Assembly (NCBI GenBank): GCA_947624305.1
Contig: CANQKC010000009.1
Location: 1-64,000 of the forward strand
Direction: 5' to 3'
Length of the DNA stretch: 64,000 nucleotides
Source of the DNA: an uncultured Monoglobus sp.
GTDB lineage: Bacteria; Bacillota; Clostridia; Monoglobales; Monoglobaceae
In this document: positions 4,957 through 41,758 of the stretch, in pieces
Layout: every line of letters begins with the position of its first letter
Numbering within the stretch: position 1 is the first letter of the stretch
Notes under the pieces: generated by a model
Told to the model about the DNA's origin: nothing
What the model saw: only the letters and a program-made list of their open reading frames with translations
The model's database searches: none
Position numbers and translations under genes: made by a program

Positions 4957-5878
4957 TTTGTTTTCCTTCTTTCAAATTAACAAACATATTGAACATATCG
5001 TTATACCAGCTTCCGTTTATGGGATTTGGTCGACTAATTATTTTGTGCTCGCCGTTTTTCATTGCCTCGATAACGATTGCTCTGCCGTCCACCAAAGTTG
5101 TTCCCTCATCATTTTCAAGCCTCCAAAAATTTTCGTTTTCAAAGCTGCGCACGATTTCATCGATCTGTTCTTTTGTAAGCTTATAGACCTTGGTTCCAAA
5201 CTCACCGGTTGTATGACTTTTAGTGCTGTATCTAAGTTCTCCTCCGTTGTCGGTAACGGTCACTCTGAATATCAAGTTTCCACCGCCGGCGATATTAGAA
5301 AGTCTATAAACCTCTGTTTCATTTCCCTCAAGCCTGCCTTCTCCCAACTCCTCAAAATCCTCCGAAAGACTTTTGTCCCAAAATTTACCAAACCCGTAAA
5401 TTATCATGTCTTCCGGGGCTGAATCGTCTCTCAGACGCTCATATGTTCCTCTGTATGAAAAACATCCTGTTTTCATCCCATCAACATTCTTTTCATCTAT
5501 AAACTTAAGTAGGTCAACGTACTGCGGATAACCATGCGCTCCATAGCCGTCGTAACTGTAAAGCTCACAAACTTCCACGTCAACGGAATTATACTCTGTC
5601 AGCTTCTTCTTAATTTTTTCAACATCAGAGGTTCCTCGCAAAAATATTTTCCATAGCGGAATTTCGAAACCCGTCCGTTCAATCAGCGCGAAACGCATTC
5701 CCTCTTTCGTGGGTTCTTTATCCTTGTTCCATACATATACCGTGCATGCATACGCACCGTCTTTCACCGAAAAAAACGACTCATCTGCTTTTTTACCTAC
5801 ATCACATACAGCGTATCCGGCTACACAGCTTGCGGCAACAATTACAACAAGAATAATTATTATCATAAATTTTTTCAC
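4946..5878 (-). CDS. Hypothetical exported or lipoprotein-like protein
   Basis: A 310-residue protein not assigned to a family. The N-terminus has a short basic start, a run of about 16 hydrophobic residues and AASC, which could be a weak lipobox or just a membrane anchor. The rest is hydrophilic and predicted extracytoplasmic, with acidic and aromatic-rich segments and no motif I recognise. Its 3' end overlaps the rqcP start by 11 bases. It sits with the methyltransferase gene between mazG and rqcP, a position where Bacillus has neither, so it is probably a lineage-specific insertion. Confidence 0.7.
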   Translation of the reverse strand: MKKFMIIIILVVIVAASCVAGYAVCDVGKKADESFFSVKDGAYACTVYVWNKDKEPTKEGMRFALIERTGFEIPLWKIFLRGTSDVEKIKKKLTEYNSVDVEVCELYSYDGYGAHGYPQYVDLLKFIDEKNVDGMKTGCFSYRGTYERLRDDSAPEDMIIYGFGKFWDKSLSEDFEELGEGRLEGNETEVYRLSNIAGGGNLIFRVTVTDNGGELRYSTKSHTTGEFGTKVYKLTKEQIDEIVRSFENENFWRLENDEGTTLVDGRAIVIEAMKNGEHKIISRPNPINGSWYNDMFNMFVNLKEGKQNET

Positions 5879-9890: not shown

Positions 9891-10033
9891 AAAAAACCGC
9901 TTTGATTTCTCAAAGCGGCTGTTGTTTTAAACCGTCTTTGGTCGGAGCGTCACTCCCGGCATCTCTTTTGCCCGTTGCAATCGCACGCGGCGCATGAGGA
10001 CGCACTTTTCACCTCAAAGACATGTCTTATTGT
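9891..10033 (-). ncRNA. Short structured transcription unit (candidate sRNA or sORF mRNA)
   Basis: A self-contained minus-strand unit: a promoter with the start near 10033, several small hairpins (for example CATGC-GCC-GCGTG, TTGC-AACGG-GCAA and GGAG-TGAC-GCTCC), and a strong terminator (GCCGCTTTGA stem and TTTTTT, 9891-9920). The length is about 145 nt. It contains a 31-codon reading frame with an SD-like sequence, so it may be coding, structural or both. Confidence 0.5.
9910..10005 (-). CDS. Possible 31-residue small protein
   Basis: GTG start at 10005 preceded by GAGGTGA, stop TGA at 9910-9912 inside the terminator stem. The predicted peptide is basic and rich in Ala, Pro and Gly, without a hydrophobic segment; it starts MRPHAPRAIATGKRDAG. 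I do not recognise a family. The fit between promoter, SD, frame and terminator is the only support, and the RNA could instead be non-coding. Confidence 0.35.
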   Translation of the reverse strand: MRPHAPRAIATGKRDAGSDAPTKDGLKQQPL

Positions 10034-10039
10034 ATTCTA

Positions 10040-10068
10040 ATTATATCACATTTATTTTTGTTTGTAAA
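10040..10068 (-). promoter_or_regulatory. Promoter of the short transcription unit
   Basis: Minus strand TTTACA (10063-10068), 17-base spacer, TATAAT (10040-10045). It lies across the 3' end of the PBECR-like gene, so the small unit has its own start rather than depending on read-through. Confidence 0.7.
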
Positions 10069-10429
10069 GTATTTTTTTGTTTTTGAGTGTCTTTTTCCAC
10101 GTTTGTTCGCCGATTTTCCAAAATGATATTATTGAATTTCTGTACTCTGCCGGATCATTTTCTATTTTTATCCTTAACACAAGCTTGAATTTTTCGCCGT
10201 TTTCTTGTATCTCTTTTAAAACTACTCCGGTATTTGGTTTATTTGCTTTAATAATATAATCCGGAGCAGTAATAATGCATGATAAATAAGAATAATATCT
10301 CTCGTAATCATCGGGGTGGCGCTCTTTTATATGCTCAATACGCTCGTCCGTAATGATAACCTCATCGGTGGTTATATCTTCGGCAATGCATTTATATATT
10401 TCCCTGTTGATTTTTCCTACAAGTTTCAC
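10052..10429 (-). CDS. PBECR-like (barnase-EndoU-colicin-RelE fold) nuclease domain protein
   Basis: A 125-residue protein beginning MKLVGKINREIYKCI and containing ITDERIEHIKERHPDDYERY, then DYIIKANKPNTGVVLKEI and a conserved core ending in SFWKIGEQTW. This matches the pattern I associate with the PBECR2 family (phage-barnase-EndoU-ColicinE5/D-RelE-like nuclease fold), proposed RNases found in phage and polymorphic toxins. Here it is a stand-alone cytoplasmic protein with no obvious immunity gene beside it. Its own promoter is at 10462-10489. Family identity is recalled, not searched, and activity is unproven. Confidence 0.65.
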   Translation of the reverse strand: MKLVGKINREIYKCIAEDITTDEVIITDERIEHIKERHPDDYERYYSYLSCIITAPDYIIKANKPNTGVVLKEIQENGEKFKLVLRIKIENDPAEYRNSIISFWKIGEQTWKKTLKNKKILYKQK

Positions 10430-10489: not shown

Positions 10490-10554
10490 TCTTATAAACG
10501 GCGTCTTTGAATTTGTTTCGGAGAATTATGTCGAAAAAAACGGAAAAGTTTTTG

Positions 10555-10583
10555 TTTACATAATACCTCTGCTGTGATATAAT
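10555..10583 (+). promoter_or_regulatory. Promoter of AbrB/zinc-ribbon leader 1
   Basis: TTTACA (10555-10560), 17 bases, TATAAT (10578-10583) with a TGTGA extension before the -10. The predicted start (about 10590) coincides with the first base of the long hairpin. Confidence 0.8.
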
Positions 10584-10587
10584 CAAA

Positions 10588-10751
10588 GTTGCCAAACTAT
10601 TACAATATCTATCAATATGTATGCTTTTTGTTTCGACAAAAATGCATGCTCATATCTGGCGTACATTGCGATAGATAGGTTGATAGTTTGGCGACTAAAT
10701 CCGAGCATAGCGTTTTTGGGCGCGTTGCTCGGCTTCGCGCCTTTTTGTTTT
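10588..10751 (+). ncRNA. Structured attenuator-like leader 1
   Basis: Two 33-base arms (10588-10620 and 10663-10695) form an imperfect long stem sharing GCCAAACTAT and TATCTATC blocks, with an inner hairpin (about 10620-10647) between them. Then CCGAGCA (10701-10707) can pair with TGCTCGG (10726-10732). TGCTCGG lies in the loop of a terminator stem GGCGCG/CGCGCC (10719-10724, 10736-10741), which is followed by TTTTTGTTTT. A second closing pair, AAATCCG with CGGATTT, brackets the terminator. The two pairings are mutually obstructive, as expected for an attenuator. The same layout recurs at 41333-41495. Confidence 0.65.
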
Positions 10752-10787
10752 GCGCGGATTTATCAAATATTTTTTGGAGGTATTATT

Positions 10788-11027
10788 ATGACAGTTAAAA
10801 TCGACTCAGCCGGCAGAGTAGTTATCCCGAAGCTATACCGGCAAAAATTTAATTTAAAGCCGAACACGGAGGCCAACATGCTGCCCCTGCCGGACGACAT
10901 CGGCGTTTCGCTGTTCCGCCTGGTTCCGCGCTGCGCCAACTGCGGCGAGGAAAAAGGACTTGAAAAATTTGAGAACATATCGCTCTGCGAAAATTGCAGA
11001 CGGGTCCTAAAATACGCGCTGAAATAA
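10788..11027 (+). CDS. AbrB-like regulator with C-terminal zinc ribbon (copy 1)
   Basis: Seventy-nine residues. The N-terminal half is a SpoVT/AbrB swapped-hairpin DNA-binding domain (VKIDSAGRVVIPKLYRQKF). The C-terminal half has two CxxC knuckles (CANCGEE and CENCRR), forming a probable zinc ribbon. Such proteins are DNA-binding dimers; the target is unknown. TTTTTGGAGG precedes the ATG, and a longer upstream frame would run through the structured leader and is rejected. A paralogue with the same domain order and leader design is at 41513-41758. Autoregulation is a plausible inference. Confidence 0.85.
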   Translation: MTVKIDSAGRVVIPKLYRQKFNLKPNTEANMLPLPDDIGVSLFRLVPRCANCGEEKGLEKFENISLCENCRRVLKYALK

Positions 11028-11741: not shown

Positions 11742-11999
11742 ATGCTGGCAGAAATACGAGGACGCTCACAGGTCACAATTCCCGCCGATATTATAAAAAA
11801 GCTCGGCATCAGCGAGGGCGATAAATTTGACATTACCGAAAAAGACGGCGGCATATTCTTATGTCCGGTCGTTGTGTATCCCAAAAATAAAATCGCCAAA
11901 ATAGCCAAGCTTGTTAAAGACGCCGAGCAAGAGACCTCGAAACAAACCGCTTTTGAAAGCGTTGAGGAAATGTTCGCGGATATGGGGATCGACTCTTAA
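11742..11999 (+). CDS. AbrB/MazE-type antitoxin
   Basis: Eighty-five residues. It has an N-terminal SpoVT/AbrB fold (AEIRGRSQVTIPADIIKKLGISEGDKF) that would bind the operator palindrome, and a hydrophilic acidic C-terminal tail (SVEEMFADMG) of the kind that wraps a toxin. The start has AAAGGGTGA upstream. The stop is one base before the toxin ATG, so translation is coupled. An AbrB-fold antitoxin paired with a RelE-fold toxin is a known type II combination. Confidence 0.85.
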   Translation: MLAEIRGRSQVTIPADIIKKLGISEGDKFDITEKDGGIFLCPVVVYPKNKIAKIAKLVKDAEQETSKQTAFESVEEMFADMGIDS

Positions 12000-12000
12000 A

Positions 12001-12264
12001 ATGTATAAGCTGAAATACACCAAGACCTTTGAAAAACATCTGAAAAGCTTATCGCGCGCTGAACAGACCGCGGTGGCGAATAAGCTCAAATTATTAATTA
12101 AAGATCCGTTTTATCCGTCTCTGCGGACCAAAAAAGTCCGGGGTTTTGATGATGTGTTTGAAATGAGCGTTAATATGAACATCAGGATTTTATGGCGGTA
12201 TGAAAACGGCGTTATTATTCTGTTATTGGAAGTCGGACATCACAAAGACATTCTCGGAGTATAA
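12001..12264 (+). CDS. RelE/ParE-superfamily toxin
   Basis: Eighty-seven residues with the RelE/ParE pattern: YTKTFEKHLKSLSRAEQTAV, a central LRTKKVRGFDDVFEMSVN and a final strand pair IRILWRYENGVIILLLEVGHH. Members either cut mRNA on the ribosome or poison gyrase; the sequence does not settle which. It starts one base after the antitoxin stop, and an in-frame extension into the antitoxin gene is rejected. It is followed directly by a strong terminator. Confidence 0.85.
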   Translation: MYKLKYTKTFEKHLKSLSRAEQTAVANKLKLLIKDPFYPSLRTKKVRGFDDVFEMSVNMNIRILWRYENGVIILLLEVGHHKDILGV

Positions 12265-41300: not shown

Positions 41301-41329
41301 TTTACAAATTTTGAGGTTTATGTTATATT
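41301..41329 (+). promoter_or_regulatory. Promoter of AbrB/zinc-ribbon leader 2
   Basis: TTTACA (41301-41306), 17 bases, TATATT (41324-41329). The hairpin begins at the expected start, as in copy 1. Confidence 0.75.
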
Positions 41330-41332
41330 AGA

Positions 41333-41495
41333 GTTGCAACTTTTTTTAAATAATACTCAATCATCATTAGTATACCGTTTTGAAAAAACGTGTATGCTTT
41401 GGTTTTTTATACTAATGGTAGTTGGGTAAAAAAAAAAGAGTTGCGTTATGCCAAGGCTGCGTTTTTATGCGTCGGCTTTGGCCGGCGCATTTTTT
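41333..41495 (+). ncRNA. Structured attenuator-like leader 2
   Basis: The long imperfect stem has arms at about 41336-41374 and 41408-41444; the most exact block is CATTAGTATA paired with TATACTAATG. An inner CGTTTT-GA-AAAACG hairpin lies between the arms. GCCAAGGC (41450-41457) can pair with GCTTTGGC inside the terminator ATGCGTCGGC-TTTG-GCCGGCGCAT (41467-41490) and its T6 tail. Primary sequence differs from leader 1, but the order and pairing scheme are the same. Confidence 0.65.
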
Positions 41496-41512
41496 ATACA
41501 GGAGGTGTTTTT

Positions 41513-41758
41513 ATGAAGTACATATGCAGAATGAATTCGGACGGAAGAATGGTCATACCAAAGGAAATATGCAGGGAATTTAATATTGAAAAAGGAAATA
41601 AAATAGAAATTGTAACCGTTGATGATTGTGAGCAGATAATTTTGAAAAAGCTTAATCCGTCATGCGTTATTTGCGGGGCGGAAAAAAATCTTATAAAAGT
41701 TAAAGAAAAATTTATTTGCGAGAGCTGCGCGGAAATCAGCGCAAAAAAACAGGATTGA
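41513..41758 (+). CDS. AbrB-like regulator with C-terminal zinc ribbon (copy 2)
   Basis: Eighty-one residues: a swapped-hairpin domain (CRMNSDGRMVIPKEICREFN, EKGNKIEIVTVDD) and then a two-knuckle zinc ribbon (CVICGAEKNLI and CESCAE). It is the paralogue of the protein at 10788-11027, with the same domain order and similar length. ACAGGAGG lies upstream. An extension into the leader is rejected. Confidence 0.85.
   Translation: MKYICRMNSDGRMVIPKEICREFNIEKGNKIEIVTVDDCEQIILKKLNPSCVICGAEKNLIKVKEKFICESCAEISAKKQD

Follow-up and report, generated by a model that had tools for sequence, protein, structure and literature searches.

A structured leader upstream of an AbrB/zinc-ribbon gene

The window analysed here is a 64,000-nucleotide stretch of DNA from an uncultured Monoglobus sp. 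(contig CANQKC010000009.1, positions 1 to 64,000). Its forward strand holds, at positions 10788 to 11027, a gene for a 79-amino-acid protein with an AbrB-type DNA-binding domain and a zinc ribbon, identified by profile matches and aligned homologues. Both domains had been proposed in an original prediction made from the sequence, and both were recovered. The product matched TIGR01439 with 32.4 bits (cut-off, 28.3) and scored 22.3 against Pfam MazE_antitoxin, under the cut-off of 24.7, and the four cysteines of the zinc ribbon were invariant in 11 of 11 aligned homologues.

The gene is preceded by a ribosome-binding site (GGAGG, 10776 to 10780, +) and, further upstream on the same strand, by a promoter (10555 to 10583) composed of TTTACA (10555 to 10560), a 17-nt spacer, and TATAAT ending at 10583. 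The promoter agrees with the consensus at 11 of 12 positions and carries an extended -10 TG, as the prediction of a consensus promoter had implied, and its -10 spacing is shared by most related copies of the leader. The leader itself (10588 to 10763, +) was matched in the window by our covariance model R1, described below, with 110 bits and an E value of 6.2e-20. The region from 10588 to 10780 folds at -77.7, compared to -45.3 ± 3.9 for 200 shuffled sequences, none of which reached so low a value (z = -8.3), and the hairpin from 10588 to 10695 folded alone gives -42.5 kcal/mol. A hairpin with 33-base arms had been described here; its start at the predicted first transcribed base stands, but the arm figure proved loose. 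The fold comprises a 15-bp lower stem (10588 to 10602 with 10681 to 10695) whose helix covaries, an internal loop, an 8-bp upper stem (10606 to 10613 with 10670 to 10677) that is free in sequence and near-fixed in length across copies, and an apical hairpin with a conserved bulge (10619 to 10651).

Past this hairpin, the linker CCGAGCATAGCGTTTTT (10701 to 10717) is followed by an intrinsic terminator (10718 to 10746), a G+C-rich hairpin with a T-run that lies between promoter and gene, as expected of an attenuator, and whose helix covaries. Within the linker, CCGAGCA (10701 to 10707) can pair with TGCTCGG (10726 to 10732) inside the terminator, in line with the original prediction, making the linker a putative antiterminator strand; the antiterminator, at a predicted -19.1 kcal/mol, is comparable in stability to the terminator, at -15.2 kcal/mol. 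A third pairing had been overlooked: the linker can alternatively pair with CAAAAATGCATGCTC (10637 to 10651), the 3′ side of the apical hairpin. Since the same strand pairs with either the apical 3′ side or the terminator, the linker looks like a switch.

A second copy lies further along the forward strand of the window. It consists of a promoter (TTTACA ... TATATT, 41301 to 41329), a leader of a divergent subtype with a CCAAGG linker (41333 to 41513; 61.3 bits, E value of 2.6e-10), and a second AbrB/zinc-ribbon gene of 81 amino acids (41513 to 41758, +), recognized by protein profiles and sequence, on the first base of which the leader match ends.

Several other features surround the first copy. 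Just upstream of the leader locus and on the opposite strand, positions 9933 to 10022 match skipping-rope RNA (RF02924; 46.7 bits), and a gene adjoining the leader (10052 to 10429, minus strand) encodes a protein with a PBECR2 nuclease-like domain. Past the next gene, positions 11742 to 12264 of the forward strand hold a toxin-antitoxin-like pair of a MazE/AbrB-type antitoxin and a YafQ/ParE-like protein. The sequence TGTCGAAAAA (10520 to 10540), located 5′ of the promoter, recurs ahead of several AbrB leaders and resembles a Spo0A box.

Distribution of related copies

A pattern of the conserved apical and linker letters matched at least 120 stretches in genome contigs, nearly all of them clostridial; 83 of 120 pattern loci were parsed, with L161 to L197 outside the parsed set. 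In successive analyses, five loci (L101, L106, L111, L135, and L151) and then a sixth (L133) were removed by eye as false or doubtful. Of 78 elements, 58 were retained; we took 39 of them, added the window copy, L021, and L016, and built R1 from the resulting alignment of 42 leaders (A3).

R1 found 18 copies in the genome of the window. Within a sample of the order, 37 of 51 genomes matched (36 of the 38 family members and 1 of the 13 from other families), with a maximum of 35 copies in one relative, and within a sample of the class, scoring six candidates per genome, 96 of 391 genomes did. A phylum-wide sample yielded a match in the window's own genome alone (1 of 299), and R1 is therefore specific. 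Tandem copies were frequent (L205 at 1501 to 1895; L220 at 1501 to 2209, with three consecutive copies; L222; L249; L253; and L257).

Individual loci showed further features. L091 and L142 are good-looking copies in a metagenome-assembled genome (MAG) labelled Bacteroides sp., which is probably mis-binned or mislabelled. L211, in the window's genome, has a short open reading frame (ORF) about 140 nt past the element, presumably an IS200-type transposase. L153, in a clostridial MAG, contains a Fusobacteriales-1 RNA (RF02920) at 5141 to 5257 on the minus strand (96.8 bits).

Mobile elements were considered as a source. The strict pattern had 0 matches in viral contigs, and the window leader, used as the query in a distant search of phage records, returned short weak matches alone. 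Searched with a consensus-like copy, the phage records gave two unannotated "Bacteriophage sp." scaffolds, L268 and L269, with R1 scores of 149.6 and 127.2 bits. The genes of L268 look chromosomal, so neither scaffold was counted as a phage copy and a phage origin was set aside. A plasmid origin was dropped as well, the plasmid search having returned no match.

Scans against Rfam 15 (the window, the leader alone at E values up to 5, and 18 of the 120 pattern loci) gave no match to the element at gathering score, in agreement with the earlier reading that no T-box or known riboswitch signature is present. Likewise, nothing recognizable as the element appeared in the literature covered, including passages of the genome-wide RNA surveys PMC11109978 and PMC8632094; subscription papers and preprints fell mostly outside this coverage.

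Conserved architecture and covariation

To compare copies, we used alignment A4, which comprises 80 covariance model matches, including a weak one (L228:1807, 30.7 bits) that was removed for the counts of promoter spacing and stem length. In every copy, an extended -10 promoter leads into a long stem that starts at about +1 and carries an apical hairpin with a conserved bulge; linker, intrinsic terminator, and usually a gene follow in that order. In 63 of 77 copies, 3 to 4 nt separate the end of the -10 element from model position 1. The dimensions of the hairpin are similarly constant: the lower stem measures 14 nt in 76 of 77 copies and the 3′ side of the internal loop 5 nt in 75 of 77, and the upper stem spans 16 to 20 bp (interquartile range).

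An absence of covariation in homologues had been named by the original prediction as the finding that would speak against it. Covariation turned out to be strong. For the hairpin and the terminator together, 95.2% of the cells are paired and 447 double-change cells were counted compared to 104 in shuffles, a count biased towards this structure because A4 was fitted to it; the terminator helix taken singly is 99.0% paired. The linker:apical pairing, which is absent from the R1 model, is formed in 96.9% of the cells (best slid version, 64.5%), with 41 double-change cells compared to 10.3 in shuffles. Judged by this comparison of copies, the stem, the apical hairpin, the linker:apical pairing, and the terminator are well supported parts of the structure, and the fold is conserved with covariation, as would be expected of a riboswitch.

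The alternative antiterminator expected of an attenuator also appears conserved, being paired in 90.6% of the A4 cells compared to at most 62.4% in slid versions; its double changes (16 compared to 10.5 in shuffles) are barely above background, and the case for it is made by pairing frequency and the slid controls. At pair 83:160 of A3 we counted 26 GC, 13 AU, 3 GU, and 0 AC, although the search pattern permitted AC (p = 2e-8). The A5, GCTC, GAGC, and T5 letters were preset by that pattern, and their invariance in most of A3 is by construction. The predicted energies of the linker:apical pairing (-16.4), the antiterminator (-19 to -21), and the terminator (-15.2) are comparable and, as modelled, would be close enough to allow switching.

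Genes downstream of the element

Under strict rules, 82 of 128 elements could be assigned a downstream gene, leaving 46 without one. For this analysis eight loci were removed, namely, the earlier six plus L091 and L142, the copies of which look real and carry the Bacteroides label. By a simple rule, 54 of the 82 downstream genes have a signal-peptide-like start, compared to 64 of 309 other ORFs in the same loci (p = 3e-14). Seventy-one of 79 downstream proteins were aligned; their Pfam matches were to BspA-type leucine-rich repeats (LRR) (23), helix-turn-helix HTH_3 (4), MazE/AbrB (3), S-layer homology (2), CHAP (2), and dockerin (2) domains. In the window's genome, the genes after the copies encode AbrB/zinc-ribbon proteins (4 of 18), BspA-like proteins, RCC1-repeat proteins, and other secreted proteins. 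It seems that the element turns genes, mostly those for secreted and surface proteins, on or off by terminating transcription or letting it proceed.

One could also regard the element as a spreading promoter-leader cassette or repeat that has no switching role and whose terminator merely damps expression, which would suit the many copies per genome, the tandem copies, and the copies lacking a called gene. However, the mutually exclusive pairings of a single linker are kept, with covariation, across the class, and the adjacent genes are strongly biased towards secreted proteins; we consider a mere cassette quite unlikely.

The leader and the AbrB/zinc-ribbon genes

The AbrB/zinc-ribbon protein family was represented by 46 matches among those listed, in 11 of the 12 genus genomes searched, and upstream of these genes 38 parsed leaders share the anatomy described above, from the promoter and the long stem at about +1 through the apical hairpin and linker to the terminator. 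Autoregulation had been put forward as the simplest hypothesis: the AbrB/zinc-ribbon protein, or zinc acting through it, would bind its own leader and set read-through. Both window copies, and 4 of the 18 in the genome, do precede such genes, and the product could regulate its own leader. Yet the same RNA precedes many unrelated genes and is thus found generally, not just with AbrB/zinc-ribbon genes. Read by eye, the AbrB/zinc-ribbon loci beyond the genus (L058 to L064 and L066 to L077; L065 belongs to the genus) showed no such leader upstream, and at least one AbrB/zinc-ribbon gene in the window's genome (L005) also lacks it. Because these genes are a minority of those downstream, autoregulation is disfavoured as a general mechanism, and we hold it to be very improbable. 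The window leader is a genuine structured element that is not specific to the AbrB/zinc-ribbon gene.

Upper stems kept or exchanged as blocks at orthologous loci

Among the 18 copies in the window's genome, every one carries an upper stem of its own. The arms pair at a mean of -19.4 with their own partner, compared to -6.4 with the arms of other copies. At loci with matching flanks, the arms were either kept or swapped as a block, though the genes hardly differ. Among 22 orthologous pairs with a dS of at most 0.25 (a noisy value, being derived from about 80 codons), arm identity was at least 0.9 in 11, less than 0.8 in 10, and between these values in one; the 10 pairs with arms below 0.8 still had a mean identity of 0.95 in the promoter and 0.91 in the linker plus terminator. 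This split between kept and replaced arms speaks against gradual neutral drift, which was rejected.

The locus of the window copy illustrates the exchange. One hairpin type is shared by L001, L006, and L017 (0.90 to 0.97 identical) and a second, looser one by L007, L020, L025, L026, and L027 (0.67 to 1.0). The genes, by comparison, group L001, L006, and L007 (0.88 to 0.94) apart from the rest, and both hairpin types occur in both gene groups, a pattern explained by block exchange through recombination.

The upper stem might be an address, in that a complementary RNA would recognize the sequence of each copy and the paralogues would be controlled separately. Such a role would agree with the private upper stem of each of the 18 copies, with arms that match only within their own copy, and with block replacement at orthologous loci. 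Against this, the window hairpin, the one of the 18 that was searched, has no convincing partner in the genome (the best match, with an E value of 0.011, lies at the start of a 92-amino-acid ORF), and a purely structural stem would equally show free sequence and fixed length. We therefore think an address unlikely. It is quite improbable, too, that selection maintains the upper stems as a diverse set of identity tags, with a matching RNA addressing each copy or with the copies competing via the shared linker and bulge. If it did, a cell would express few of its many surface proteins at once, and there would be an RNA-based surface variation with hairpin alleles shared across species.

A model for attenuation by the linker

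Judging from the comparative data, we think it probable that the leader belongs to an unlisted class of cis-acting transcription attenuators that is widespread in Clostridia and uses the linker as its switch; the AbrB/zinc-ribbon gene would then probably be one regulated gene among many. RNA polymerase would start at the extended -10 promoter and produce a long stem with its base at about +1, tipped by the apical hairpin with an unpaired GCUC bulge. At any one time the linker would do only one of three things: dock on the apical side, pair with the 5′ arm of the terminator hairpin, or remain single stranded while the terminator forms. When it docks on the bulge and the apical 3′ side, as a pseudoknot nucleated at GCUC:GAGC, the terminator would be free to form and transcription would stop. 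When docking is blocked, the linker would instead capture the 5′ arm of the terminator, allowing transcription to continue into the gene. Covariation is silent on the default state; direction, folding order, and trigger are the parts of the model that we infer. Docking may be the off state that is adopted by default, given that RNA polymerase reaches the apical partner before it reaches the terminator. Docking in cis would need a bend at the internal loop, since a straight stem would keep the linker far from the apical loop. The signal, whether a small molecule, an ion, or an RNA-binding protein, would presumably act on the conserved apical bulge and loop, preventing or favouring docking.

In a variant with the same anatomy, the trigger would always be a protein: an RNA-binding protein or a specialized NusG-like factor would bind the stem or the apical loop and control antitermination. 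A protein binder would be in keeping with a regulon of secreted and surface proteins and with the conserved bulge and loop, and the tandem copies also point this way. The linker competition, however, works without a protein, and we regard protein control as a possible but less likely arrangement.

The element resembles riboswitches and terminator attenuators in being a 5′ leader whose folded domain contains conserved unpaired residues, with a linker that serves alternative helices, an intrinsic terminator, diverse downstream genes, and tandem copies. Unlike them, it has no Rfam match, its stem has a fixed position relative to the promoter, starting at about +1, and its genes encode mostly surface proteins rather than one metabolic pathway. 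It appears to be an unlisted variant of the terminator-attenuator kind and is a riboswitch candidate that we do not file as a riboswitch. In plasmid attenuators of the pT181/pIP501 kind, the pairing of a hairpin with a downstream strand decides termination, and such hairpins diversify. The hairpin of the element can also pair with a downstream strand, but its copies are chromosomal. T-box leaders in Clostridia likewise choose between terminator and antiterminator; in contrast to these, the element had no T-box match in the Rfam scans and occurs in multiple copies ahead of surface-protein genes.

A long stem that is constrained in length and not in sequence, and that is exchanged in blocks, would, if true, be a case needing explanation. 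Should the RNA class hold up in the form given here, an unlisted regulatory RNA would be present in about one quarter of the genomes sampled from the taxonomic class, at up to dozens of copies each and in front of genes for secreted and surface proteins, and it would become testable which signal controls the cell surface of these gut bacteria.
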